From a virus: a DNA stretch of 31,389 nt. Shown here piece after piece: positions 1 to 17,346 of this stretch. Location: positions 1-31,389 of the IMG/VR virus record IMGVR_UViG_3300034062_002884; one strand, written 5' to 3'. Position numbers and translations under genes: made by a program. Numbering within the stretch: the stretch's first letter is position 1; each line of letters starts with the position of its first letter. Below the pieces are notes generated by a model that was not told the origin of the DNA, made no database searches, and was given only the letters and a program-made list of their open reading frames with translations.

Positions 1-565
1 TTGCGATGTCGTTACACAGTTCTTCTTGTAGTGTGCCACGCCTAGCACACCACTGAGCAATCCGGGTATACTTAGATAGACCAATAAGTTTGTTGGCAGC
101 AATAATACCGATATAAGCAACTCCACTGACAGGCTGATGATGATGACTACACATGCTGCGAAGCTCACTTCGCACAACCAACATACCTTCATATCTATCC
201 TCACTATCATTGGGAAACGCTGTAGCATCAGGAGCAGGTTCATATCTGCCTGACATAATTTCATTAAAATACATTTTAGCAAGTCGTCGTGCTGTGCCCC
301 GACTGTTAGGATCCGTTTCTCTATCGATCAACAATGTGTCTAGTACGTTTTCGAATGCTCGAGTAGTTTCGTTGATTAGGATTTCTCGATCACCTTCGTG
401 CAAGTAATTGCTGATGTTGTCTCCAGCCCAAAATCTTTTGCCATCACGCTTCATTCTAAAGCGGATAGCATCGGCCAAATTGGCTTCTTCATAGCCTTTG
501 TCGTCTATCACATTGATCAAGTGTTCACCTTGTTGAAAATCTTTATATGTTTTATCGTAACCCAT
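1..565 (-). CDS. folE: GTP cyclohydrolase I, partial (C-terminal end beyond left edge)
   Basis: Read on the minus strand from an ATG at 563-565, the frame stays open to the window edge (188 codons). Family landmarks are a segment reading TARRLAKMYFNEI, then a CSHHHQPVSG zinc/active-site motif, then KLIGLSKYTRIAQWCARR and the QEEL segment typical of FolE. The Cys and following His of CSHHH match two zinc ligands. The third ligand (a later Cys in FolE) would lie off the window. The enzyme opens GTP to dihydroneopterin triphosphate, the first step of both folate and 7-deazaguanine synthesis. A strong ribosome site (GGAG, five bases before the ATG) fixes the start, and a late-promoter-like CTAAATAC lies about 30 bases upstream. 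With a DpdA-like transglycosylase and a QueD-like protein a few genes away, deazaguanine synthesis is the likelier role. The family call is firm; the pathway is inferred. Confidence 0.9.
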   Translation of the reverse strand, partial: MGYDKTYKDFQQGEHLINVIDDKGYEEANLADAIRFRMKRDGKRFWAGDNISNYLHEGDREILINETTRAFENVLDTLLIDRETDPNSRGTARRLAKMYFNEIMSGRYEPAPDATAFPNDSEDRYEGMLVVRSELRSMCSHHHQPVSGVAYIGIIAANKLIGLSKYTRIAQWCARRGTLQEELCNDIA

Positions 566-594
566 TTATTCTCCACTGTTTGTGTTAGTATACA

Positions 595-602
595 GTATTT
601 AG
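595..602 (-). promoter_or_regulatory. T4-type late promoter box (CTAAATAC) before folE
   Basis: The minus-strand octamer CTAAATAC resembles the T4 late -10 box TATAAATA. It overlaps the stop codon of the upstream aminotransferase gene and lies about 30 bases before the folE ATG, leaving room for a short leader with the GGAG ribosome site. The spacing closely matches the similar box before the sliding clamp gene. No -35 element is needed for this promoter class. Confidence 0.5.
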
Positions 603-1186
603 ACCTGGAAGTCAATGGTTCGCAAATCCGGATACTGTTGTTTTGTTATGTGTTCGGTAATATTGGGCAATTGGTCTATGCCCAGCCGGCAAGTTTCCAA
701 GGTTGGACAATAGTGATAGCCTTCTTTAAATACCCGTTGATCTTGCCAAGGTACAATACTAAGATCTCTACCATCCGATCTCATACAGCTCAATGCTAGA
801 TATTCTGCTTTTGAATCTAGTAATATGGCACCACATTTTCCTAGCTGTAAAGGTTTACCATGCCCAAAACTCACGCATTGTTTTTGACCCACACGATACA
901 TTCCTGATTCAAGCCTGCGAGCACTGTCCCAGATGTTGGTCCCTTTGAAGTGATATTCACCAACGGTGTACCAATAGTCTGATTGTAACTGATAAGTGAT
1001 ATTGAGCTTGTGCATCAGTTGCGGAACGCTGATGTAGGTAAATGCTGTAAACTCGGTATAAGTAACCCTATCCAATCTAAAACAAAGTTCAAGAGCATGA
1101 GTGCAACCATCTGTTACGACCGCATAAGGAGCACCTGTGTATTCAGCCAATGCAGACTCAAAGTTAAACAGAGTTTGAAAACTCAT
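599..1186 (-). CDS. Short DegT/DnrJ/EryC1-type PLP aminotransferase-like protein
   Basis: The 195-aa product starts at MSFQTLFNFE; this ATG overlaps the stop of the epimerase gene (ATGA), so I prefer it to the longer upstream frame. It keeps the N-terminal landmarks of sugar aminotransferases: APYAVVTDGCTHALEL near residues 19-34 (cofactor phosphate region), Asp87 in WDSARR (pyridine-nitrogen Asp), and Lys111 in SFGHGK followed by a C-G-A-I-L-L strand (PLP lysine position). DegT enzymes are usually about 370 aa, so the C-terminal small domain is missing. A plus-strand paralogue of similar length at 15028-15699 argues that this is a stable compact form rather than a broken gene. It probably acts on a keto-sugar nucleotide with the adjacent GalE-like epimerase. 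Activity of such a short form is uncertain. Confidence 0.72.
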   Translation of the reverse strand: MSFQTLFNFESALAEYTGAPYAVVTDGCTHALELCFRLDRVTYTEFTAFTYISVPQLMHKLNITYQLQSDYWYTVGEYHFKGTNIWDSARRLESGMYRVGQKQCVSFGHGKPLQLGKCGAILLDSKAEYLALSCMRSDGRDLSIVPWQDQRVFKEGYHYCPTLETCRLGIDQLPNITEHITKQQYPDLRTIDFQV

Positions 1187-2139
1187 CTGTTGTACCAGGC
1201 CCAGGCGTGTGCAATCATGTCTTCGAGTCCATGTTCGGGCCTCCACGAACTTGCACCTTGGAATTTTGTGCTATCAGCGGTCAAAGTGGCTGGATCTCCA
1301 GATCGTCGTGGACCAACAGTATAGGCCAAGTCCTGCTTGGTTATGCCAATAGCACCGTGCAAAATTTGCAAATTGCTGTAGCCTTGATTGGTGCCCAAGT
1401 TATAAACACCACCTGGCACAGCAGGATCTATGGCTGTCACATGTGCCTGAGCAATATCTTCGACATGTACATAATCTCTCACACAGGTGCCATCTTCAGT
1501 GGCAAAATCCTGTCCGTTCAGCACAAACTGATCAGATTGGTCACGTATAGCTTCTAGCACACGGGCTATGATATGCGTGGCACCAGATTCTTGTCCATGT
1601 CGACTCATGCGATCCGCACCGCAAGCATTGAAATAACGGAATGCTACTGCGTCCAGCCCATATGCCTGTGCATAACTACGCAACATCCATTCAATCATGA
1701 GTTTGCTTTCACCATATGGACTGATTGGTTCTGCAGGATCAGTTTCTTGACATGGAGTCATGACTGGCTCACCGTAAATGGCTGCACTACTGCTGAAAAT
1801 AAAGCGAGTATTCATCATCTGATTGGCCAACATAAAATCTAACAACCGTTTTGTTTTTACAAAATTATTTTCATAATATAACTCTGGCATAAACAAGCTG
1901 GGACCAACCAGGCTTGTTCCAGCACAATGTACGATGGCATCAGGGGCAAACTGTTTGCTAGTGATCAAGGCCACTTCTGTTGCGTAGTCTCCAGTGTGCC
2001 ACCAAGTATTGCCAGTTCGTGTCAGTTGATCAGAAGGCACTCTTAAATCAATACCAAATACCTCATGACCGGCATCAGTCAAATTTAACACAGTCTGCCC
2101 ACCTATGTAGCCAGCTGCTCCAGTTACTATAATTTTCAT
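1183..2139 (-). CDS. galE: NAD-dependent sugar epimerase, GalE-like
   Basis: This 318-aa protein is an extended short-chain dehydrogenase. It has an N-terminal Rossmann motif GAAGYIG (residues 7-13), an acidic residue at the end of strand two (FGIDLR, binding the NAD ribose), a Ser-rich active-site strand SSSAAIYG (116-123) and the catalytic pair Tyr142/Lys146 in PYGESK. The stretches RYFNACGAD and VRDYVHVEDIAQAH are classic UDP-glucose 4-epimerase signatures, and the length is close to the family norm of about 340. It interconverts UDP-glucose and UDP-galactose or a related pair. It overlaps both neighbours by four bases and sits between an aminotransferase and a methyltransferase, which suggests supply of a modified sugar for a phage glycosylation step. 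Exact substrate unknown. Confidence 0.88.
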   Translation of the reverse strand: MKIIVTGAAGYIGGQTVLNLTDAGHEVFGIDLRVPSDQLTRTGNTWWHTGDYATEVALITSKQFAPDAIVHCAGTSLVGPSLFMPELYYENNFVKTKRLLDFMLANQMMNTRFIFSSSAAIYGEPVMTPCQETDPAEPISPYGESKLMIEWMLRSYAQAYGLDAVAFRYFNACGADRMSRHGQESGATHIIARVLEAIRDQSDQFVLNGQDFATEDGTCVRDYVHVEDIAQAHVTAIDPAVPGGVYNLGTNQGYSNLQILHGAIGITKQDLAYTVGPRRSGDPATLTADSTKFQGASSWRPEHGLEDMIAHAWAWYNR

Positions 2140-2834
2140 TTTTTAAATACCATTCTGATATTTCCGTCCATGACCTCATTGGGCTGTTCAGTAATCAGCA
2201 AATCGATTACAATAAAGTCTATGTCAAGAGTAGACAGTTGATTGTACACATATTCTTGCACTTGCAAGGAGCTTGGAGTTGACGTCTCAAATGTGCTTAA
2301 TAGCCACTCCGAGTTAGAGCGTTCTAACATACGAGCAGAGTTTAATGCTAAAAATCCCCTGCCGCCTTTTGCAACAATGTTGTAGAAGTCCATAACTCTT
2401 GTTGTCAACTGACTTAATGGCACAAAATGCAAAGCATTTATTGAAAATGCACATTGATAAGCCTCGGTGTGTCCTTGACTGAATTCTGAATCAAAATGAT
2501 CAAATTCATCAGCTGCACGGTTTGTGTAGTTCTCCGGGGTAGGGTCAATGCCGTGACAATCAATGTTGTAAATTTTTTTAATTAAGTGTTTGAACAAATT
2601 TGCACCGCAACCGACGTCAACAATTTGTGTTGGAGCAACACTGGCCAAAAAGTCCAGGTACCATAATGGTATCATGCTAAACTTTTTGGTCACACAGTCC
2701 TCTCTAGGAGTACGAAAAAGATGATTGTATTTGTAAGTTAGTAAAACATCGTTTCCAAACACTTCTTTAGCAGAAACATCATATTTTAATTTTTTTGATT
2801 CTTTTTCGAACCAGTCGCTGTCAAATTTAGTCAT
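2136..2834 (-). CDS. Class I SAM-dependent methyltransferase
   Basis: I place the start at MTKFDSDWFEKE, where the ATG overlaps the glycosyltransferase stop (ATGA), giving 232 aa; a frame extending 24 codons further upstream lies inside that gene. Motif I is IVDVGCGANLFKHL, followed by an acidic post-II segment CHGIDPTPENY and a motif-IV-like CAFSINALHFV. This is the Rossmann order of class I SAM methyltransferases. The segment KGGRGFLALNS matches the strand before motif VI. The target cannot be read from sequence. Position between a sugar epimerase and a glycosyltransferase suggests O- or N-methylation of a sugar or glycan, but DNA or a small molecule is possible. Confidence 0.8.
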   Translation of the reverse strand: MTKFDSDWFEKESKKLKYDVSAKEVFGNDVLLTYKYNHLFRTPREDCVTKKFSMIPLWYLDFLASVAPTQIVDVGCGANLFKHLIKKIYNIDCHGIDPTPENYTNRAADEFDHFDSEFSQGHTEAYQCAFSINALHFVPLSQLTTRVMDFYNIVAKGGRGFLALNSARMLERSNSEWLLSTFETSTPSSLQVQEYVYNQLSTLDIDFIVIDLLITEQPNEVMDGNIRMVFKK

Positions 2835-4036
2835 CCTTCGATCTTTCTCACATGATATTTGGCCTGGCTCACATGGTCGCGATATCTGTTGCCAGCACGG
2901 TTCCATTCTTCGCCCGATCCTTCCAAGATGTCTACCACACGATCAACTGTGCCATTGTTCCAGTCTGAAATCAGTCCAGAATTGTGATGCAGTTCTTGCA
3001 ACAGGTTTTCTAACTTGTGATAGGCATCATCTATGCTCCAGGGAACATATAATCGATTAGGGTCGTCAGCAAATGTCTCAGGAAAACTGCGATAAGCAGG
3101 ATATAAGACATTGCAACCAAGAGTGTCAGCTTCGCTAACGGTGTTCGAGACCCAGTCCTGTAAAGCACAGTTAAACAAAACACGAGTATCATTAAGCAAA
3201 TTATAATAATCATTTTTCTTCAAGTTTTCATAAATTACCAACCGACCTTCACGTTCTAGTTGTCTAGCACGATCGATATAACGCGGATTGTTACTGCGTA
3301 ACGGGCCACCTGAGAACACAGCAAACTCAATATCAGCATGACGACCTTGTCCATGATACATGTCAATCAAGTCCATGTAAAAGTCTGGTTGCTTTTCTTG
3401 ATCAAATCTGGCCGCAAAGCCCACACGCATCTTTCTTTCACCAAACGGTCGAATGTTAGACTCACCACCAATACGCTCTAGCACTTCTGACTTGCCAAAT
3501 GCCAAGCCTGAAATGTTGTAAATTGGCGCACGATATCCGGCTATACGCATGTGAGCCACCATCTCTTCGTTTGTGGCCAACACACCAGTCACAAAGCAAT
3601 TGACCATGCGTTCGTATGTGGCCATCCATTCAGCCATACCCCACACATGCACAAAGTCATCTGGGTCAATAGCTTGTGCAAGACAGCGCACATAAATCCT
3701 GGGTCGCTGGCTAGCATCAACTTGGTCAAGGATATAAGGCAAACTTTCAATACCAGGCTGGAACATGTCTTCAAAGTAGATGACATCTTGATCAGTGACT
3801 TCGCCGTTACGCATCATCTGCACCAGATTCATCATCTGGCTCATGCCAAAGTAACTGCGGCCATGTGCATCCAGCACTTGTCCTACACTGATACTTTGTG
3901 TGCTGTCAATAGTGCTTCCTGGAACATATACCACATCCAGGCCACGGCGATCAAACACACGCCGGTTCCATTCAGTCAGTTGTAGAGTGTATCTTGCTTC
4001 ATACGATTCTAAGCCCATGTAAAATAGTTTTCTCAT
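2831..4036 (-). CDS. GT-B fold glycosyltransferase (GT4-like)
   Basis: This 401-aa protein has the C-terminal half of a GT-B glycosyltransferase: MRVGFAARFDQEKQPDF (start of the nucleotide-sugar domain), an ENLKKNDYYNLLND helix, and SNTVSEADTLGCNVLYP, equivalent to the donor-binding E-x7-E region where the acidic residues contact the sugar nucleotide. The N-terminal acceptor domain is divergent. T4-like phages use GT-B enzymes to glucosylate modified bases, and others decorate host surface glycans; the acceptor here is unknown. It overlaps the methyltransferase and the small gene upstream by four bases each, so all three are probably translated from one message. Confidence 0.75.
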   Translation of the reverse strand: MRKLFYMGLESYEARYTLQLTEWNRRVFDRRGLDVVYVPGSTIDSTQSISVGQVLDAHGRSYFGMSQMMNLVQMMRNGEVTDQDVIYFEDMFQPGIESLPYILDQVDASQRPRIYVRCLAQAIDPDDFVHVWGMAEWMATYERMVNCFVTGVLATNEEMVAHMRIAGYRAPIYNISGLAFGKSEVLERIGGESNIRPFGERKMRVGFAARFDQEKQPDFYMDLIDMYHGQGRHADIEFAVFSGGPLRSNNPRYIDRARQLEREGRLVIYENLKKNDYYNLLNDTRVLFNCALQDWVSNTVSEADTLGCNVLYPAYRSFPETFADDPNRLYVPWSIDDAYHKLENLLQELHHNSGLISDWNNGTVDRVVDILEGSGEEWNRAGNRYRDHVSQAKYHVRKIEG

Positions 4037-5013: not shown

Positions 5014-5525
5014 TTTACGATTTCATCCTTGGTGTATCGAGACCAGTCGGTGAATACTTGGCGATCTCGTAAGTCATGTAAACTATGGCACCAGACTCCA
5101 GGATTGGTTGCAGCAAAATCCCGATCATCCAGTTTGATTGTGGCATTGTACCCCAACTGTTGTATGTAGGGTAGCTTGACTGAAATCATTGGAATAAAGT
5201 TGTTGTATTCAACCAAGGGGCCTTCAATCAGGCCTTCCACAGCTGAAACATCTAGATCCAGGGTACACAAGAAACCATGATCCATCACTGTCTTAATCAT
5301 GACTTCCCAAGCTGACCACAGTACCCCAGACAGTTTGCCTGGATCAAGGAAACTCTGATTGGCACCAAAGTACACATGGGTACATCCATTGGCTCTGGCC
5401 AAATCAACCAGCATCACAGGATCTTGTACACCTACCACAAACAAGGTCTTGTGGCCAAATGCTGGTGAGTGTTCAACTTCGGTGCCAACAAAACAGTTGG
5501 CTGTTTCATGTCCTGCTCGGTTCAT
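5010..5525 (-). CDS. Conserved protein next to DpdA-like gene, unknown function
   Basis: A 171-aa protein starting MNRAGHETANCFVGTEVEHS. It has alternating strands and helices (KTLFVVGVQDP, THVYFGANQSF, FLCTLDLDVSAVEG, MISVKLPYIQQLGYN, ATIKLDDRDF) reminiscent of half a TIM-type barrel. There is no CxxxCxxC radical-SAM cluster, so it is not QueE. It overlaps the DpdA-like gene by four bases (ATGA) and is translated just after it, so a partner or accessory role in base exchange is plausible but unproven. I do not recognise a named family. Confidence 0.68.
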   Translation of the reverse strand: MNRAGHETANCFVGTEVEHSPAFGHKTLFVVGVQDPVMLVDLARANGCTHVYFGANQSFLDPGKLSGVLWSAWEVMIKTVMDHGFLCTLDLDVSAVEGLIEGPLVEYNNFIPMISVKLPYIQQLGYNATIKLDDRDFAATNPGVWCHSLHDLRDRQVFTDWSRYTKDEIVK

Positions 5526-7258
5526 GCTTGTTCCTGTTCCAGTTGATCCAGTGCTGTTTGATCTAATTGTACACTGTCATCGGTATCTGTGTCAACTTCG
5601 GTGTTCTCAATATCGTTAACTTCAAAAAATACGTTGAACAATGGACGACCACTTTTTACATTGTCTCCCTTGTAGCCACGAGTGCCGGGAATATCCATCC
5701 AATAACGATCATAATGATCAATAATGGCTTCAGCTTCGGCGCGGTCTGGCGTGGCAAATATAGCATCCACGATGTCTTTAAATCGGGCATGATCACCTGT
5801 GCGATTTTTGGTTCCTTGATGCCACATCATGGCTGGCCATGTGCCCGAATCATAAGCACGATTGGCTCGTTGTACCGATTCTATATGCATCCAAACATTG
5901 TGTCCCATTAACAATGCATAACTGAAACTGTCCCAAGAAGTTTTACCTTCTTTGCCAATTTTGTTTAAATCGCCCGGTGCATAGATACAAACATCTTTCA
6001 TAGTCAGTAACTGACTAATTGGACTTTCATCAAAGTGCTTGATCAAGTCATCTGCTATCACAGCTGGTCCAAATGGTCTGGTATCTGAGCTGTACTTTTT
6101 GTCATCCACAATAGGGCTCATTCTATAACACCACTTGTCATTGTGTGGTAAGTCAATGTGATGATACACCTGTCCATTGGCTGTGGCCAAGAATGGACTG
6201 GCACAATCAAAACTGATAGTGAAAGCAGGATTTACATATTTACGTATGGCTCTTTGAATATCTGTAAGCAACAGTGCCCATTCTAATTTACTTGTGCCCA
6301 AGAAGTGCATCCAGTCATGAATGCCTTCTTGTAGTAAATTATCATGGCGTAGTGCTACCAATCGTCTTAGCACTAGTTCAACATCGCACATGTTCTGTCC
6401 ACCCATTGCCCAGCCATTGAAGTGTGTATCTGGATACTGAACAGGATCGCAATAGTGCTTCATGGTTTCATACCAACTGTTTGCATCGTCGTGGTTGGCA
6501 CCTTGTAACACATTCAACACTTTCATACCGCCATTCCGAATGCCTTTACGATGCTTCATGTAAAATTCATTATTGTACTTGGTGGCATTGACTAGTTCTG
6601 TTATATCTCCAAAGTTACCAATTTTACCATTGGCCTCTTTGTCATTTATAACCCAGGTTGGAATATCCAACGTCATACCGTAATCACAAATGCCATCTAG
6701 CCATTTAACTACAGCTTCTCTTTTTTTCTGTGCAGCATCTAATAAATTTTGATAATTTTTAACATGATCAATTGTGGTGTACTTTGTATTGCCATTTTTA
6801 TCATGTTTGGGCTTACCATTTGGACCAAGTGTTGGAACATGTTCAACGCCTTTGGCCTGAGCTTTGGCCATTTTATCAAGCACCTCTGGTCCAGTTGGAT
6901 CATGCCATTCACCTTCCCAAAGTCCTTTGGCAATCTGGAATCCACCAGAGTCGCCCAGCATAAGAGTTTTAGGATCGCGACTACGAACCATGTCTTCCGA
7001 CCAGTCCTGCTTGGTCAAATCTAGATTGGCATGACCACCTGAGTACAATGACCATTTATAAGGGAACAGACCCTTTTGATCATTGAGCCAGTTCATCATT
7101 TCCATGTCTTTGAGACCTGCGGGCATTCTAGCAGGATCCACATAGGGTCCGTTTACAGGATCACGTTGTTTGCCTACAAAGGTGGCATAGAAGCCACTGA
7201 TAGCAGGCAAGAATACAGCATAGTCCAGCTGTTTGGCTGTTAAATTATCTTGCGTCAT
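5522..7258 (-). CDS. dpdA: DpdA-like (tRNA-guanine transglycosylase family) DNA base-exchange enzyme
   Basis: The 578-aa protein carries the landmarks of the TGT superfamily in order: LGDSGGFQ at 101-108 (TGT DSGGFQ, with the substrate-binding Asp), GMTLDIP at 194-200, VLNVLQG at 247-253 (TGT VQGG), FNGWAMGG at 280-287 (TGT YAIGG), HFLGTS at 318-323 (TGT MGVGTP) and SFDC at 349-352 (TGT FDC, where the nucleophilic Asp sits). The zinc motif CxCxxC of tRNA enzymes is not visible. At 578 aa it is much longer than bacterial TGT (about 370), with an acidic Gln/Asp-rich C-terminus. Phage DpdA proteins swap guanine in DNA for a 7-deazaguanine. With folE and a QueD-like gene in the same run, DNA modification is much more likely than tRNA queuosine. 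The exact base is unknown. Confidence 0.75.
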   Translation of the reverse strand: MTQDNLTAKQLDYAVFLPAISGFYATFVGKQRDPVNGPYVDPARMPAGLKDMEMMNWLNDQKGLFPYKWSLYSGGHANLDLTKQDWSEDMVRSRDPKTLMLGDSGGFQIAKGLWEGEWHDPTGPEVLDKMAKAQAKGVEHVPTLGPNGKPKHDKNGNTKYTTIDHVKNYQNLLDAAQKKREAVVKWLDGICDYGMTLDIPTWVINDKEANGKIGNFGDITELVNATKYNNEFYMKHRKGIRNGGMKVLNVLQGANHDDANSWYETMKHYCDPVQYPDTHFNGWAMGGQNMCDVELVLRRLVALRHDNLLQEGIHDWMHFLGTSKLEWALLLTDIQRAIRKYVNPAFTISFDCASPFLATANGQVYHHIDLPHNDKWCYRMSPIVDDKKYSSDTRPFGPAVIADDLIKHFDESPISQLLTMKDVCIYAPGDLNKIGKEGKTSWDSFSYALLMGHNVWMHIESVQRANRAYDSGTWPAMMWHQGTKNRTGDHARFKDIVDAIFATPDRAEAEAIIDHYDRYWMDIPGTRGYKGDNVKSGRPLFNVFFEVNDIENTEVDTDTDDSVQLDQTALDQLEQEQA

Positions 7259-12742: not shown

Positions 12743-12982
12743 CTAAACTGTTTCAGAATTAGATGAATGCTTGCCCCAATCAATACGATTCCAGGCACGT
12801 TCGTGGAAATAGTATAAAATACTATTAACTACCAAGGTAAAACCGACTACACCCAATCCAACCCATGGATTACCTGATGCAAGCCAGCCACCCAAGAAAT
12901 TAGTAACGGTAACCGAAATACGCCAGGTTACTACCTTGCCTAGGCTACGCATGGATTTTTCTAACCATTTAGATTTAAACAT
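12743..12982 (-). CDS. DUF2061 family membrane protein
   Basis: A 79-aa protein with the DUF2061 pattern: GKVVTWRISVTVTNFLGGWLASG, then a second hydrophobic segment (VGLGVVGFTLVVNSILYYF), then HERAWNRIDWG, the family's closing HE-x-x-W-x-x-x-x-W-G signature. The two hydrophobic stretches (about residues 20-37 and 42-58) should span the inner membrane. AAAGGA stands seven bases before the ATG. Function of the family is unknown; it is found in bacteria and in several aquatic phages. It is divergent from the plus-strand island, with only 36 bases between the two starts. Confidence 0.85.
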   Translation of the reverse strand: MFKSKWLEKSMRSLGKVVTWRISVTVTNFLGGWLASGNPWVGLGVVGFTLVVNSILYYFHERAWNRIDWGKHSSNSETV

Positions 12983-13018
12983 TTTATTTCCTTTAAAAAG
13001 TTGACACTAAGTATTGAC
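12983..13018. promoter_or_regulatory. Divergent 36-base spacer between DUF2061 and the ligase-like gene
   Basis: This short gap separates oppositely directed genes. It holds the minus-strand ribosome site of the DUF2061 gene and, on the plus strand, a TTGACA at 13001 and another at 13015 (overlapping the start codon), but no good -10 box at 16-18 bases from either. I see no clear promoter for the plus-strand genes; the region is AT-rich and may hold a weak one. Confidence 0.25.
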
Positions 13019-14107
13019 ATGAAAAGAGCAGTTCTTTGTGTTAAACATCCTCAAAATTATATCAATGACTTGAATGATTATAGCATTATGATTGTCAACC
13101 CTGATAGTGCACCAGCGCGACTGGATTATTTATTGACCAAGTCAGACTACAGTTTATTAATTACCGACCAGACCACCGTTGATCGCGATGGGGGTGATTA
13201 TCCTGGAGAACGGATTCTTGCTTATACTTCTGGCACCACTGGAGACAGTAAATTTTATTCATTCTCTCAGGCACAGGTCAATCACTGTGTTGATACAATA
13301 GTTCAATCGTATGAACTCACAGACAATGATCGATATGTAAGTGTAATGCCATTATGGCATGCGCATGGTCAGGCATTTTATTGGGTTGCTAAACGGATCG
13401 GTTGCGAAGCACATTTTTTATCTATAGCCAATCTTAGGAACATGCCCAGCTACAGTCCTACTTTTATTACCGCTGTGCCTGATGTGCTAAAGACCGTTGG
13501 CCAATTGGCTTTTGATAGCCTGCGTTTTATTCGCAGTGCCAGTTCAGCCATGCCCGGCAAGTTATTCCAAGATCTTCAAGACCGATTCCAAGTTCCCATA
13601 ATTGAAGCGTTTGGTATGACTGAAGCCTATAGCCATTGTTTTACCAATCCCTTACACGGTGAGCAACGCATGGGCACCGTGGGACTGCCTTCGGGCATTG
13701 AAGCCCGCATTGACAATCGGCATTTGATGATCCGCGGCCCGGGCGTATGGACCAATGACTGGATCGATACCGGCGATTTGGCCGAACAAGACGACCGTGG
13801 ATATTATCGCATCTTGTGCCGTAGCGTTGATCAATTGAATATTAAAGGAAAGAAATTCAACCCCGTCAGTTTAGAATCACAGTTGTTGAAACACATCACC
13901 ACTCTTGAGGCGTGTGCGATATTTGGCAATCACGAACTCAACTGTGTATATGTGGGTGAATGTGAGTCCACAGAAATCCAACAGTTTTTACTTGGACTGG
14001 ATCCACATCTTAGGCCCAGATCGTTAACTCGGGTTGATGTGATACCTGTTCCTGCTTCTGGTAAAATTTCCAGGAGTTTTTTACGACAACAGTTTGATTC
14101 TAAATGA
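13019..14107 (+). CDS. Acyl/aryl-CoA ligase-like ANL-superfamily adenylating enzyme, shortened N-terminus
   Basis: From the ATG at 13019 (MKRAVLCVKHPQ; an upstream TTG is possible but has no support) the protein is 362 aa. It has the full ANL motif series: P-loop ILAYTSGTTGDSK (about residues 68-80), PLWHAHG, IRSASSAMPGK, EAFGMTEA (A5), WIDTGDLAEQDDRGYY (A7), the hinge RSVDQLNIKGKKF (A8) and PVPASGKISRSFLR with the catalytic lysine (A10). ANL ligases normally have the P-loop near residue 160-190 of 500 or more, so about 100 N-terminal residues are gone. It would activate a carboxylic acid as an acyl-AMP and perhaps pass it to CoA or a carrier. It leads a three-gene operon and overlaps the next gene by ATGA. 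Ribosome site is weak. Acid substrate unknown. Confidence 0.8.
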   Translation: MKRAVLCVKHPQNYINDLNDYSIMIVNPDSAPARLDYLLTKSDYSLLITDQTTVDRDGGDYPGERILAYTSGTTGDSKFYSFSQAQVNHCVDTIVQSYELTDNDRYVSVMPLWHAHGQAFYWVAKRIGCEAHFLSIANLRNMPSYSPTFITAVPDVLKTVGQLAFDSLRFIRSASSAMPGKLFQDLQDRFQVPIIEAFGMTEAYSHCFTNPLHGEQRMGTVGLPSGIEARIDNRHLMIRGPGVWTNDWIDTGDLAEQDDRGYYRILCRSVDQLNIKGKKFNPVSLESQLLKHITTLEACAIFGNHELNCVYVGECESTEIQQFLLGLDPHLRPRSLTRVDVIPVPASGKISRSFLRQQFDSK

Positions 14108-15027
14108 CTCAACACGTTTTCCAATCAAGATATCCCATCCTGGAAGCCTGTATGAATCGTGGCAGTACACTAGAATTGGCTGTGGCTGTACATGCGGCAG
14201 GTGGATATCCCAGCCTGTGTTCGTGGACATACAATCGACACAGTCAGGCCATGCAACAAGACCTGGATCGTTTTGTCAAACTGACCAATAGTAACTGTAT
14301 ACATTTGAGTTTTGAACTGAATGAATTTGATAATCAAGTTGTACACGACATTGTTCAATCACACAACATTCCTACTGTAGAAATTATCTATGGCAAGACC
14401 AATATGTATCGCTCAACAGATTCTGAATCAGAATTAGAAGTGACATTGTTACAATTACTTGGACCGTTAAAAGAGCAAGGAACACAGATCTTTAAACGTG
14501 TGTATGAAACAGTGGATCAAGACACTATGGATCGGCATTTGCTAGATGGATTTTGTATCAAAGGTGCCGAGAGTGCAGGATTTAGTTCTTACATTCCTGT
14601 TAGAGAAACATTTTTAAAACAGCGTGAGCTGACTCCCAGTGCCATGCTAATACCATACGGTGGTGTAGGCACAGCCGACCAGGTTCAAGACTATATCAAC
14701 CTGGGCGCTGAAATGGTTGCTGTGGGCACAGTGTTGGCACTAAGTGTAGAAAGTACAATGGCTACAGAAACTAAACTTGCAGCAATACAAAAACAATCCC
14801 AGGATCTGGTACAATCAACTCATGACTTTGGCGGAGTCAAACGCAAACAATCATCCTTGAAGTTTGGCAACTACGCTGGACCCGACGACGCAAACGGCAC
14901 CATTGGATTGGTACGTGGATTAAATGGCAAGAAAGATAGCCATGTTTATCTTGGACATGGTATCGATCATGTCACTGAAATATTGTCTTGTCAACAGATT
15001 ATACAAAACTTAGTGGAGAAAATTTAA
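14104..15027 (+). CDS. Nitronate monooxygenase-like flavoenzyme, catalytic His replaced
   Basis: The 307-aa protein has the TIM-barrel pattern of the nitronate monooxygenase / FabK family: PILEACMNRGSTLELAVAVHAAGGYPSL (N-terminal substrate and FMN region), DGFCIKGAESAGF at 148-160, IPYGGVGTADQVQDYINLGAEMVAVGT at 183-209 (phosphate-binding loops for FMN) and a following LSVES. In the family the third segment reads G-x-EAGGH, whose His is the catalytic base; here it reads G-A-E-S-A-G-F, so the usual nitroalkane chemistry may be lost. Family members reduce or oxidise small substrates with FMN. It overlaps the ligase-like gene (ATGA) and abuts the aminotransferase, implying a shared pathway. Confidence 0.72.
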   Translation: MTQHVFQSRYPILEACMNRGSTLELAVAVHAAGGYPSLCSWTYNRHSQAMQQDLDRFVKLTNSNCIHLSFELNEFDNQVVHDIVQSHNIPTVEIIYGKTNMYRSTDSESELEVTLLQLLGPLKEQGTQIFKRVYETVDQDTMDRHLLDGFCIKGAESAGFSSYIPVRETFLKQRELTPSAMLIPYGGVGTADQVQDYINLGAEMVAVGTVLALSVESTMATETKLAAIQKQSQDLVQSTHDFGGVKRKQSSLKFGNYAGPDDANGTIGLVRGLNGKKDSHVYLGHGIDHVTEILSCQQIIQNLVEKI

Positions 15028-15699
15028 ATGTCCCTATTCAGAACTGAACTTGATCAATTACGGGCGGCTGGCTATGAATTTGAACAAACATGGCAAGTTG
15101 TAGATCTGTTTGAACAAAAAATCGCAGGATTTTTTGGTGCTCCCTACGCTGTGGCCACAGATTGTTGTACTCATGCACTTGAATTGAGTTTAAGACTATT
15201 AAATTGTTTTCAGCTTGAAGTGGACATACCGTTGCACACTTATATGAGTGTGCCCATGATGATGGACAAAATCAATCATTCATGGCGATTTAAAAATATC
15301 GCATGGTCAGATCAGTACTTGCTTGATCCTTTGCCTGTCATTGATGCTGCTAGAACGTGGAAATTGGATTCATATGTGCCTGGGCATTTGATGTGCTTGA
15401 GCTTTCAATTTAAAAAACATCTTCCTATTGGTCGTGGTGGCATTATATTGACGGACAGTCTCGATCAATATAATCAATTGCAAAAAATGGTTAGAGATGG
15501 ACGTGATCGTAAGATACTATGGGAAACCGATGACGTTGATACTGCGGGATATCATTATTACATGACTCCAGAAGATGCTGCCCGCGGAATCATGTTGTTT
15601 GATCAATTGCACAATGTTGCCGCTACACGAACTTGGTCATGGCAGGATTACAAACCATTAAATCAGTTGTCAGTGTTCAAGACCCAACAAATTTTCTAG
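15028..15699 (+). CDS. Short DegT-type PLP aminotransferase-like protein (paralogue)
   Basis: This 223-aa protein is a second, independent copy of the compact DegT form seen at 599-1186. It has APYAVATDCCTHALELSL at 38-55, a TYMSVPMMMDKI segment, Asp106 in VIDAART (binding the PLP nitrogen) and Lys130 in SFQFKK just before the GRGGIIL strand. The C-terminal domain of normal 370-aa DegT enzymes is missing in both copies. It starts right after the preceding TAA (no gap) and its last 23 bases overlap convergently with the minus-strand NeuD-like gene. Together with that acyltransferase it may make an N-acylated amino sugar. Activity and substrate are inferred. Confidence 0.72.
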   Translation: MSLFRTELDQLRAAGYEFEQTWQVVDLFEQKIAGFFGAPYAVATDCCTHALELSLRLLNCFQLEVDIPLHTYMSVPMMMDKINHSWRFKNIAWSDQYLLDPLPVIDAARTWKLDSYVPGHLMCLSFQFKKHLPIGRGGIILTDSLDQYNQLQKMVRDGRDRKILWETDDVDTAGYHYYMTPEDAARGIMLFDQLHNVAATRTWSWQDYKPLNQLSVFKTQQIF

Positions 15700-16276
15700 C
15701 TGTGGATCCAATGTATTGACCTGGGTGTGTGATATTTTTGACCACATTAGCAAAGGCCATAAGTTCAACATCATCAACAACAGTTGCACGATTGGTCACA
15801 GTTGAGCGAATATTAAACACACAATTATCGCCCACAGTAGATTTGTCTGTGACCATGACGCCAGGCCGTAGTACGCAATTACGACCAATGGTACTGTAAT
15901 GTCCTAGCATACTGTACGCACTTATAATACAATGACGGCCAATGGCAGCTCCTAGACTAATATTGCAAAAAGGAAAAATAAAGGTACCAGGTTGTATCTC
16001 TGGTGCAGGATTGTTTCCAATCAGGCAGTGATCATTAATCACAGTAATTAAATCTAGATCAAGACTGTCTACTGTGTCAATGACGTTTTTTCGTTCAGCA
16101 AAATTAACACTGACAGAAACAATATATTGGAACTGGGTATCAGGATTGTTCAAAAAATCTTGTGTTTCTACTACAGTGACTGACCTGGTACAAGAAATTT
16201 CTCCAACAAACTCCTGGGTCATTGAAGATTCTGCATAACCAATGATACGTATAGGTTTATCGTTGCCAATGATCAT
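15677..16276 (-). CDS. NeuD/PglD-like sugar acyltransferase (left-handed beta-helix)
   Basis: The 199-aa protein has an N-terminal Rossmann-like part (KPIRIIGYAESS) and a C-terminal hexapeptide-repeat beta-helix, visible as I-G-x-x-C-x-x steps such as IGRHCIISAYSMLG, IGRNCVLRPGVMV, VGDNCVFNIRSTV and VDDVELMAFANV. NeuD/PglD enzymes acetylate amino sugars with acetyl-CoA; their length is about 200-210. The catalytic His seen in PglD in the first helix turns may be the His in MLGHYS. It overlaps the next upstream gene by ATGA. With the DegT genes it may complete an acylated amino sugar. Substrate is inferred. Confidence 0.75.
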   Translation of the reverse strand: MIIGNDKPIRIIGYAESSMTQEFVGEISCTRSVTVVETQDFLNNPDTQFQYIVSVSVNFAERKNVIDTVDSLDLDLITVINDHCLIGNNPAPEIQPGTFIFPFCNISLGAAIGRHCIISAYSMLGHYSTIGRNCVLRPGVMVTDKSTVGDNCVFNIRSTVTNRATVVDDVELMAFANVVKNITHPGQYIGSTARKFVGS

Positions 16277-17346
16277 GCTAGTCCTTTTAAAATTTTATAA
16301 ACGTGTGTATTTGACTGTTCGCATACGTCCCAAAATTTTTGCGAAGTGACCAGGTCGTGATTATGCAAGGTACTTTCCAGGGTCATTTCATAAAGATCCT
16401 GTGCAGACCAGTACTGTAACGATTTGATTAAGTTAACAATCTGCTCTAATCTGGTGAGATTGCCTTTCTCGTTATCAAAATCAAGATCTAGTTCTCCATA
16501 GTTGAATTTTAATCCCAATTGGCGAAACCATTTATAGGTATGCATTTGTCCTACTGGAATAAATGCTGTACGTGATAATAAACATTTCCAGGTTTTTTCT
16601 GTGACAAACGGTCCAGGTTCTACATACGATCTTGTTCCATTGTCCATGAAACTATAAAAATAACTTTCCATGGTAAAATTTAAAGCCGCCGTTTGATAAG
16701 CACTGTTACGGTACGAATGATCTATGTTGTTGTCGCTGGGCAAACTTATTTTTTTACCTAACCATTGATCTTTAAACATTGTCATGTAATGATCACAAAC
16801 TGTATTACTAGACAACTGCCACCCGTGTACATGGCTATCAAGGGGTAACTTACACCTCAATGATACCACTCGATCTTTTTCACCAAGTATGTCGGTTAAG
16901 GCTGCAAAGACGATAGCCTTGCTGTGACGGATAACACTGGTTAGGGCACTGGCTTTGTGTTGTATATTTTTAACTATTTCTGGTCGAGCAACACCTTGTA
17001 TACGTCTATGAGCACTATTATATGGCACATATCGTATGCGATCAGTGTCAAATGAATCAGGCATCAATGAGCCAGTTAGATGTATTATCTTGCCATCGAT
17101 GCGATCAATCACATGTTCTGGCCAGCCAAACATTAGACTATCTCCGCTTGTTATATAATATTCATAACCAGATGGTGGTGCATCTGGATAACTGCCGTCG
17201 GCCTTCCACGGAAGATGTAAATCTAGGTAAATGTTTTTGTGTCGGAGATCTTCAATCCAAGGATACCACCAGAGTATTTCTTCAGTAAGTTTTATAGTCC
17301 GGATATCGCCAGATACCCTTAAAGGAATACAAGAAGTAGGAATCAT
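16273..17346 (-). CDS. Possible glycosyltransferase, fucosyltransferase/exostosin-like C-terminus
   Basis: The 357-aa protein has no clear N-terminal family match. Near residues 245-290 it has FVTEKTWKCLLSRTAFIPVGQ and YKWFRQLGLKFN, resembling the (F/Y)-x-TEK-(I/W)...PIV-x-G...LRELGF motif of GT10 fucosyltransferases and exostosins, where TEK lies near the donor nucleotide. The start ATG has a weak ribosome site. It overlaps the NeuD-like gene by ATGA, so it shares the glycan operon. I rate it as likely GT-B glycosyltransferase but the match covers only part of the protein. Confidence 0.5.
   Translation of the reverse strand: MIPTSCIPLRVSGDIRTIKLTEEILWWYPWIEDLRHKNIYLDLHLPWKADGSYPDAPPSGYEYYITSGDSLMFGWPEHVIDRIDGKIIHLTGSLMPDSFDTDRIRYVPYNSAHRRIQGVARPEIVKNIQHKASALTSVIRHSKAIVFAALTDILGEKDRVVSLRCKLPLDSHVHGWQLSSNTVCDHYMTMFKDQWLGKKISLPSDNNIDHSYRNSAYQTAALNFTMESYFYSFMDNGTRSYVEPGPFVTEKTWKCLLSRTAFIPVGQMHTYKWFRQLGLKFNYGELDLDFDNEKGNLTRLEQIVNLIKSLQYWSAQDLYEMTLESTLHNHDLVTSQKFWDVCEQSNTHVYKILKGLA

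Follow-up and report, generated by a model that had tools for sequence, protein, structure and literature searches.

A plus-strand island in a T4-like phage carries candidate parts of an acyl-transfer pathway leading to acylated amino sugars

Three plus-strand genes in a virus record of 31,389 bases (the whole of this stretch is called the window here) encode a short enzyme of the ANL superfamily, a flavoenzyme-like protein and a short DegT-type aminotransferase. The members of this trio recur in dozens of related viruses, where they look like swappable pathway parts. We propose, with a probability of roughly 40%, that the island is T4-like phage cargo supplying parts of a phage-owned acyl-transfer pathway that runs from acid activation to amino-sugar acylation. 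We infer the reactions, the order of the steps, the CoA carrier and the glycan target from family knowledge and gene neighbourhood. The short ANL enzyme would adenylate a carboxylic acid with ATP, most likely yielding a CoA thioester. The DegT-type aminotransferase would then aminate a keto-sugar, probably a nucleotide sugar, and a NeuD-like acyltransferase would move the acyl group to that amine, a task that would fall to an SGNH-type enzyme in other lineages. In the last step, glycosyltransferases of the phage or of the host would attach the acylated product to a glycan of the virion or of the cell surface. The flavoenzyme might provide optional tailoring by reducing an acyl or sugar intermediate, and the periplasmic TctC-like protein encoded next to the ANL enzyme in many relatives may help to capture the acid. 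Because ACP is found in just 1 of 20 large contigs, a phage carrier protein would not be required.

In the window, where open reading frames were called greedily, the trio occupies open plus-strand frames at 13019-14107, 14104-15027 and 15028-15699, and all recognisable genes outside it sit on the minus strand. The ANL and flavoenzyme genes overlap by 4 nt (ATGA), and the flavoenzyme stop is followed immediately, with no gap, by the DegT start. The layout given in a preliminary description of this DNA, in which the trio formed the only plus-strand genes and was tightly coupled, was thus borne out. By that description, its reading would be refuted if the trio occurred only here, with disrupted frames in relatives, and it had proposed a search for the trio in bacteria and phages. 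The refuting case did not arise: of 63 non-redundant IMG/VR loci, 9 have the trio, the relatives being IMG/VR contigs that are mostly fragments, and the frames were intact in every relative compared. With saturated-dS pairs excluded, dN/dS was 0.07-0.16 for the trio and 0.07-0.18 when the adjacent NeuD-like gene was included. The trio genes are real and under purifying selection; the intact frames and the dN/dS values rule out chance ORFs or pseudogenes. The only function that PHROGs gave within the trio was "aminotransferase", a tblastn search of GenBank phages gave no match for the flavoenzyme and generic matches only for the ANL and DegT proteins, and a description of the gene set was not found in the open-access literature.

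The element TAAGTATTGAC immediately precedes the ANL start in the window, forming a late-promoter-like feature (CTAAGTATTGAC, 13007-13018, plus strand) of the TAAGTA type, which we take to resemble T4 late promoters; an mRNA begun there would be leaderless. Most polymerase-lineage relatives keep a TAAGTA-type element at this distance, despite a differing upstream gene. Before other ORFs of the ANL loci, [AC]TAA[AG]TA was seen 29 times at 11-12 nt against about 1.1 expected, a count that includes redundant loci. Sigma-70 promoters showed no excess over shuffles. These patterns suggest that the island could be transcribed late and nearly leaderless from its own promoter.

The first gene (13019-14107) encodes a predicted acyl-adenylating enzyme of 362 aa, assigned by Pfam AMP-binding (PF00501, E 4e-27, above the gathering score), by motifs and by an AF2 model. 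Translation is placed at ATG 13019, since M1 is invariant in 38 relatives; TTG 13001 is a mechanical ORF start only. The superfamily motifs are present, namely the P-loop TSGTTGxxK (here TSGTTGDSK), GMTE, TGD, the hinge Asp and the C-terminal Lys (Lys349 in GKxSR), and they are invariant or nearly so in 38 sequences down to 48% identity. The structure prediction that had been called for in the preliminary description gave an ANL fold with a pLDDT of 91, and the model fits acyl-CoA synthetases along its entire chain. The nearest structures were MenE (Z about 31), feruloyl-CoA synthetase, MatB and oxalyl-CoA synthetase (Z about 31-29), and the best sequence matches were oxalyl-CoA synthetases. 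The N-terminal domain, about 400 aa long in a complete ANL enzyme, is shortened. The total deficit agrees with the earlier estimate of about 100 missing residues, but these are not all N-terminal: residue 1 of the model aligns with residue 53 of MenE and MatB, so that about 52 residues are absent at the start, and the remainder is a shortening before the P-loop. The phage protein therefore shares its whole fold and all adenylation motifs with the MenE/MatB/oxalyl-CoA synthetase branch but differs from it in lacking these segments, in being only about 20-28% identical in structure alignments, and in scoring far below the NCBIfam cut-offs (63.9 against 330 for menE; 73.6 against 558 for malonyl-CoA synthase). 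It is a member of the ANL superfamily to which no named ANL function is assigned. The same short enzyme is found in an uncultured Caudovirales phage (Acs, A0A6J7WHT9; 359 aa, 56% identical), where its only label is that of a general acyl-CoA synthetase; the open-access literature yielded no paper on either its function or its genomic surroundings. Some of the ANL genes are mosaics. The gene of L017 (10001-11080) is 92% identical to the window's gene (13019-14104) over residues 1-66 and 37% at the C-terminus; between L016 and L020, identity rises from 47% at the start to 95% at the end. The mosaics suggest intragenic recombination, which perhaps alters substrate or partner. On a 154-kb contig (L423, 7944-10812) a short DegT gene is flanked by two ANL paralogues.

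The short ANL enzyme is a phage family. Its 159 gene records, in which some contigs are counted repeatedly, fall into 72 clusters at 97% identity and lie on IMG/VR contigs, some of more than 300 kb. In cells, the best relatives are found among the Bacillota, as full-length proteins with 29-30% identity; Pseudomonadota relatives reach E 1e-41 and match mostly from about residue 65. In the sampled cells the ANL matches lie in frames of more than 400 aa, the one exception being a partial match whose frame has 383 aa. A sample of 398 Pseudomonadota genomes gave no profile match for the flavoenzyme (E<=1e-10) or the short DegT protein (E<=1e-15), while the same profiles do match phage records. Recent pick-up of the trio from a host is not supported by these absences and by the longer cellular ANL frames. 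A broader proposal is that phages own a modular acyl-donor system around a miniature ANL enzyme absent from the sampled cells. Environmental carboxylic acids would be taken up and end as acyl groups on the amino sugars of glycans, either of the virion or of the host surface; the acyltransferase could be exchanged between LbH and SGNH types, and the uptake partner between TctC and DUF2061. We regard this wider claim as doubtful, and as less probable than either of the two serious rivals considered below. Phage-encoded glycan enzymes are already known; if the proposal were true, phages would make their own non-acetyl acyl donors. This would open a testable way to novel surface chemistry, to the masking of receptors or to carbon uptake driven by phages, and the enzyme would offer enzymology a natural minimal ANL.

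The link to sugar acylation comes from what lies near the ANL gene. Across the 63 non-redundant ANL loci, each retaining most of its flanking genes, and uncorrected for phylogeny, a NeuD/LbH or SGNH-type acyl-transfer gene stood within 4 genes of ANL in 51, an aminotransferase in 34, TctC or DUF2061 in 34 (both in just 1), FolE in 17 and the flavoenzyme in 10. Forty loci with full flanks were compared with 119 control positions in the same loci, at least 9 genes from ANL. NeuD or SGNH was near ANL in 30/40 loci against 7/119 controls, an aminotransferase in 22/40 against 2/119, TctC or DUF2061 in 22/40 against 0/119, FolE in 12/40 against 1/119 and the flavoenzyme in 5/40 against 0/119. In the window, the gene for the NeuD/PglD/VioB-like left-handed beta-helix acyltransferase (15677-16276, minus strand; TIGR03570, E 4.6e-21) overlaps the DegT gene tail to tail. 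The predicted acyltransferase has LbH repeats and a conserved His, as do the NeuD/PglD/VioB N-acyltransferases, and its G125-H126 is invariant in 18 sequences, including the non-orthologous one of L300; its PDB matches are LpxD, PglD, VioB and perosamine N-acetyltransferase. Unlike NeuD proper, it scores 75.4 against a TIGR03570 cut-off of 160.8. Its gene overlaps by 4 nt that of a 357-aa protein (16273-17346, minus strand), syntenic in many slot relatives, which had no match in Pfam, PHROG or NCBIfam and may be glycosyltransferase-like. In other lineages the commonest direct ANL neighbour is DUF6071, whose likeness to SGNH proteins comes from a weak profile match (PDB E 1.7e-4) to thioesterase I and GDSL esterases, spanning blocks I and V; in some SGNH/DUF6071 members the catalytic Ser or His is not cleanly present.

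The aminotransferase (15028-15699, 223 aa) is a predicted PLP enzyme of the DegT/DnrJ/EryC1 family (PF01041, E 5.5e-15, score 55.9 against a cut-off of 19.8), and all 23 sequences compared keep the PLP motif residues D106 and K130. Among solved structures it comes closest to sugar aminotransferases, e.g. perosamine synthase. It shares the PLP Lys and Asp motifs with perosamine synthase, LegC and PseC but not their two-domain chain: the phage form has about 200-220 aa against about 370, and its PDB matches cover partial stretches. It is a family member in short form, and its activity is not certain because much of the usual chain length is missing. The short form is phage-wide, being found also in cyanophage S-SCSM2R amid glycosyltransferases.

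The flavoenzyme (14104-15027, 307 aa) is a TIM-barrel, flavoprotein-like member of the FabK/NMO superfamily by Pfam (PF03060, E 2e-8, score 34.3 against a cut-off of 28) and by its model (fold Z 24-28, nearest FabK at about 27.8). It has the phosphate-site-like GG and GT motifs of FabK and class I nitronate monooxygenases but is only about 20% identical to them, and F160 occupies the position of the catalytic His. This substitution, already remarked on in the preliminary description, proved to be family-wide, the position being F, L or Y and never H in all 15 sequences, including relatives at 48-50% identity on other phages. Having lost the His, the enzyme is not a nitronate monooxygenase in the strict sense, and it is not FabK either (TIGR03151, 37.4 against 453.1); no proposed step clearly requires it. 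A second, diverged relative (E 8e-49) is encoded at 210030-210911 of G013 C1, a 337-kb contig that also has ANL-NMO.

The preliminary description had guessed that the trio, together with the NeuD-like acyltransferase, might build an acylated sugar. The association with NeuD and with acyl-transfer genes in general held up, while the trio did not prove to be a dedicated pathway: ANL is mostly unaccompanied by the flavoenzyme, and both the flavoenzyme and DegT also turn up in the absence of ANL. The order ANL-NMO-DegT is kept in 8 loci (the window, L003, L004, L008, L012, L013, L015 and L155), and in L018 the trio is rearranged. The NMO-DegT pair is found without ANL in L157 and L162, and NMO with neither ANL nor DegT alongside in L160, L163 and L165. 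The many partial combinations rule out the trio as an obligate unit. They also fit a serious rival, which we consider unlikely though it ranks first among the alternatives, that a slot beside gene 12406 and the polymerase gathers unrelated morons and that the three enzymes serve separate purposes. This slot, between gene 12406 and a deaminase or ferredoxin gene beside the DNA polymerase, was surveyed with the polymerase rather than the island as anchor. It is hypervariable and sometimes empty (L261-L263, L292 and L293), and among 41 complete slots 2 held the trio and 5 held ANL. Some loci have NeuD or NMO-DegT but no ANL (L157, L162 and L271), so neighbours in the slot may not share a pathway. 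NeuD was present in 5/5 ANL-bearing slots against 1/36 without ANL (Fisher p 8e-6, uncorrected for relatedness). Coincidence would have to account for the order kept in 8 loci and for an ANL gene that, in lineages where its genome position is another, keeps its neighbour classes far above controls.

A second serious rival, next in rank and likewise unlikely, is auxiliary carbon metabolism: TctC-like or DUF2061 proteins would help to import an environmental carboxylate, ANL would convert it to a CoA thioester, and this would be channelled into central metabolism by the flavoenzyme or by enzymes of the host, so as to power phage production; the nearby sugar genes would be a separate matter. In the window, a DUF2061 small membrane protein (12743-12982, minus strand; PF09834, E 2.9e-13) is encoded divergently from ANL; relatives have a TctC-like periplasmic binding protein there instead. 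The TctC-like proteins match Bug/TTT binding proteins (PDB, 2e-14), BugD and terephthalate-binding proteins among them, have signal-peptide-like N-termini and, for the protein of L008, score 32.7 against a family cut-off of 27. The TctC-like gene directly adjoins ANL in 17/63 loci and in several lineages overlaps it by a few bases on one strand. The nearness of the flavoenzyme to FabK would also suit this rival, as would the resemblance of the L300 ANL to 3-hydroxybenzoate/benzoate-CoA ligases. In L300, a distant phage, this full-length ANL lies together with NeuD and a different TctC-like protein beside the same polymerase. The L300 ANL is unrelated to the short phage ANL, which suggests that the ANL/TctC/NeuD combination was assembled more than once; among the neighbourhoods this is the most telling case for the acyl-transfer proposal. 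Against carbon scavenging, the inspected neighbourhoods showed no recognisable genes for beta-oxidation or ring degradation, acyltransferase-type and aminotransferase genes are common ANL neighbours, and most phage TctC genes lie elsewhere without ANL, the family being wider than ANL and adjacent to it in 22/80 loci. The phage TctC/Bug-like solute-binding family is broad (L324-L402; at least 86 loci, mostly not ANL-adjacent), with two copies sometimes side by side.

A lesser rival, which we hold to be quite improbable, is nucleobase hypermodification, in which the enzymes together with GTP cyclohydrolase (FolE) would equip a DNA base with an amino or acyl side chain. The FolE counts near ANL given above favour it, and the window itself starts with a FolE fragment. 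In these phages, though, FolE accompanies GalE and a second short DegT protein, neither a kinase nor a glycosylase known from base-modification pathways was identified, and the relatives of NeuD and DegT are sugar enzymes. A 578-aa minus-strand protein (5522-7258) conserved beside the polymerase had no meaningful Pfam, NCBIfam, PHROG or PDB match; its GDSGGFQ motif recalls tRNA-guanine transglycosylase/DpdA. At the start of the window (2-4036, minus strand), FolE, a second short DegT-type aminotransferase (599-1186; Pfam 1.8e-9, aligned with the DegT set), a GalE-like nucleotide-sugar epimerase (1183-2139; Pfam Epimerase 8e-53), a methyltransferase and a glycosyltransferase follow in series as a second sugar-related cluster, partly common to ANL loci of other phages.
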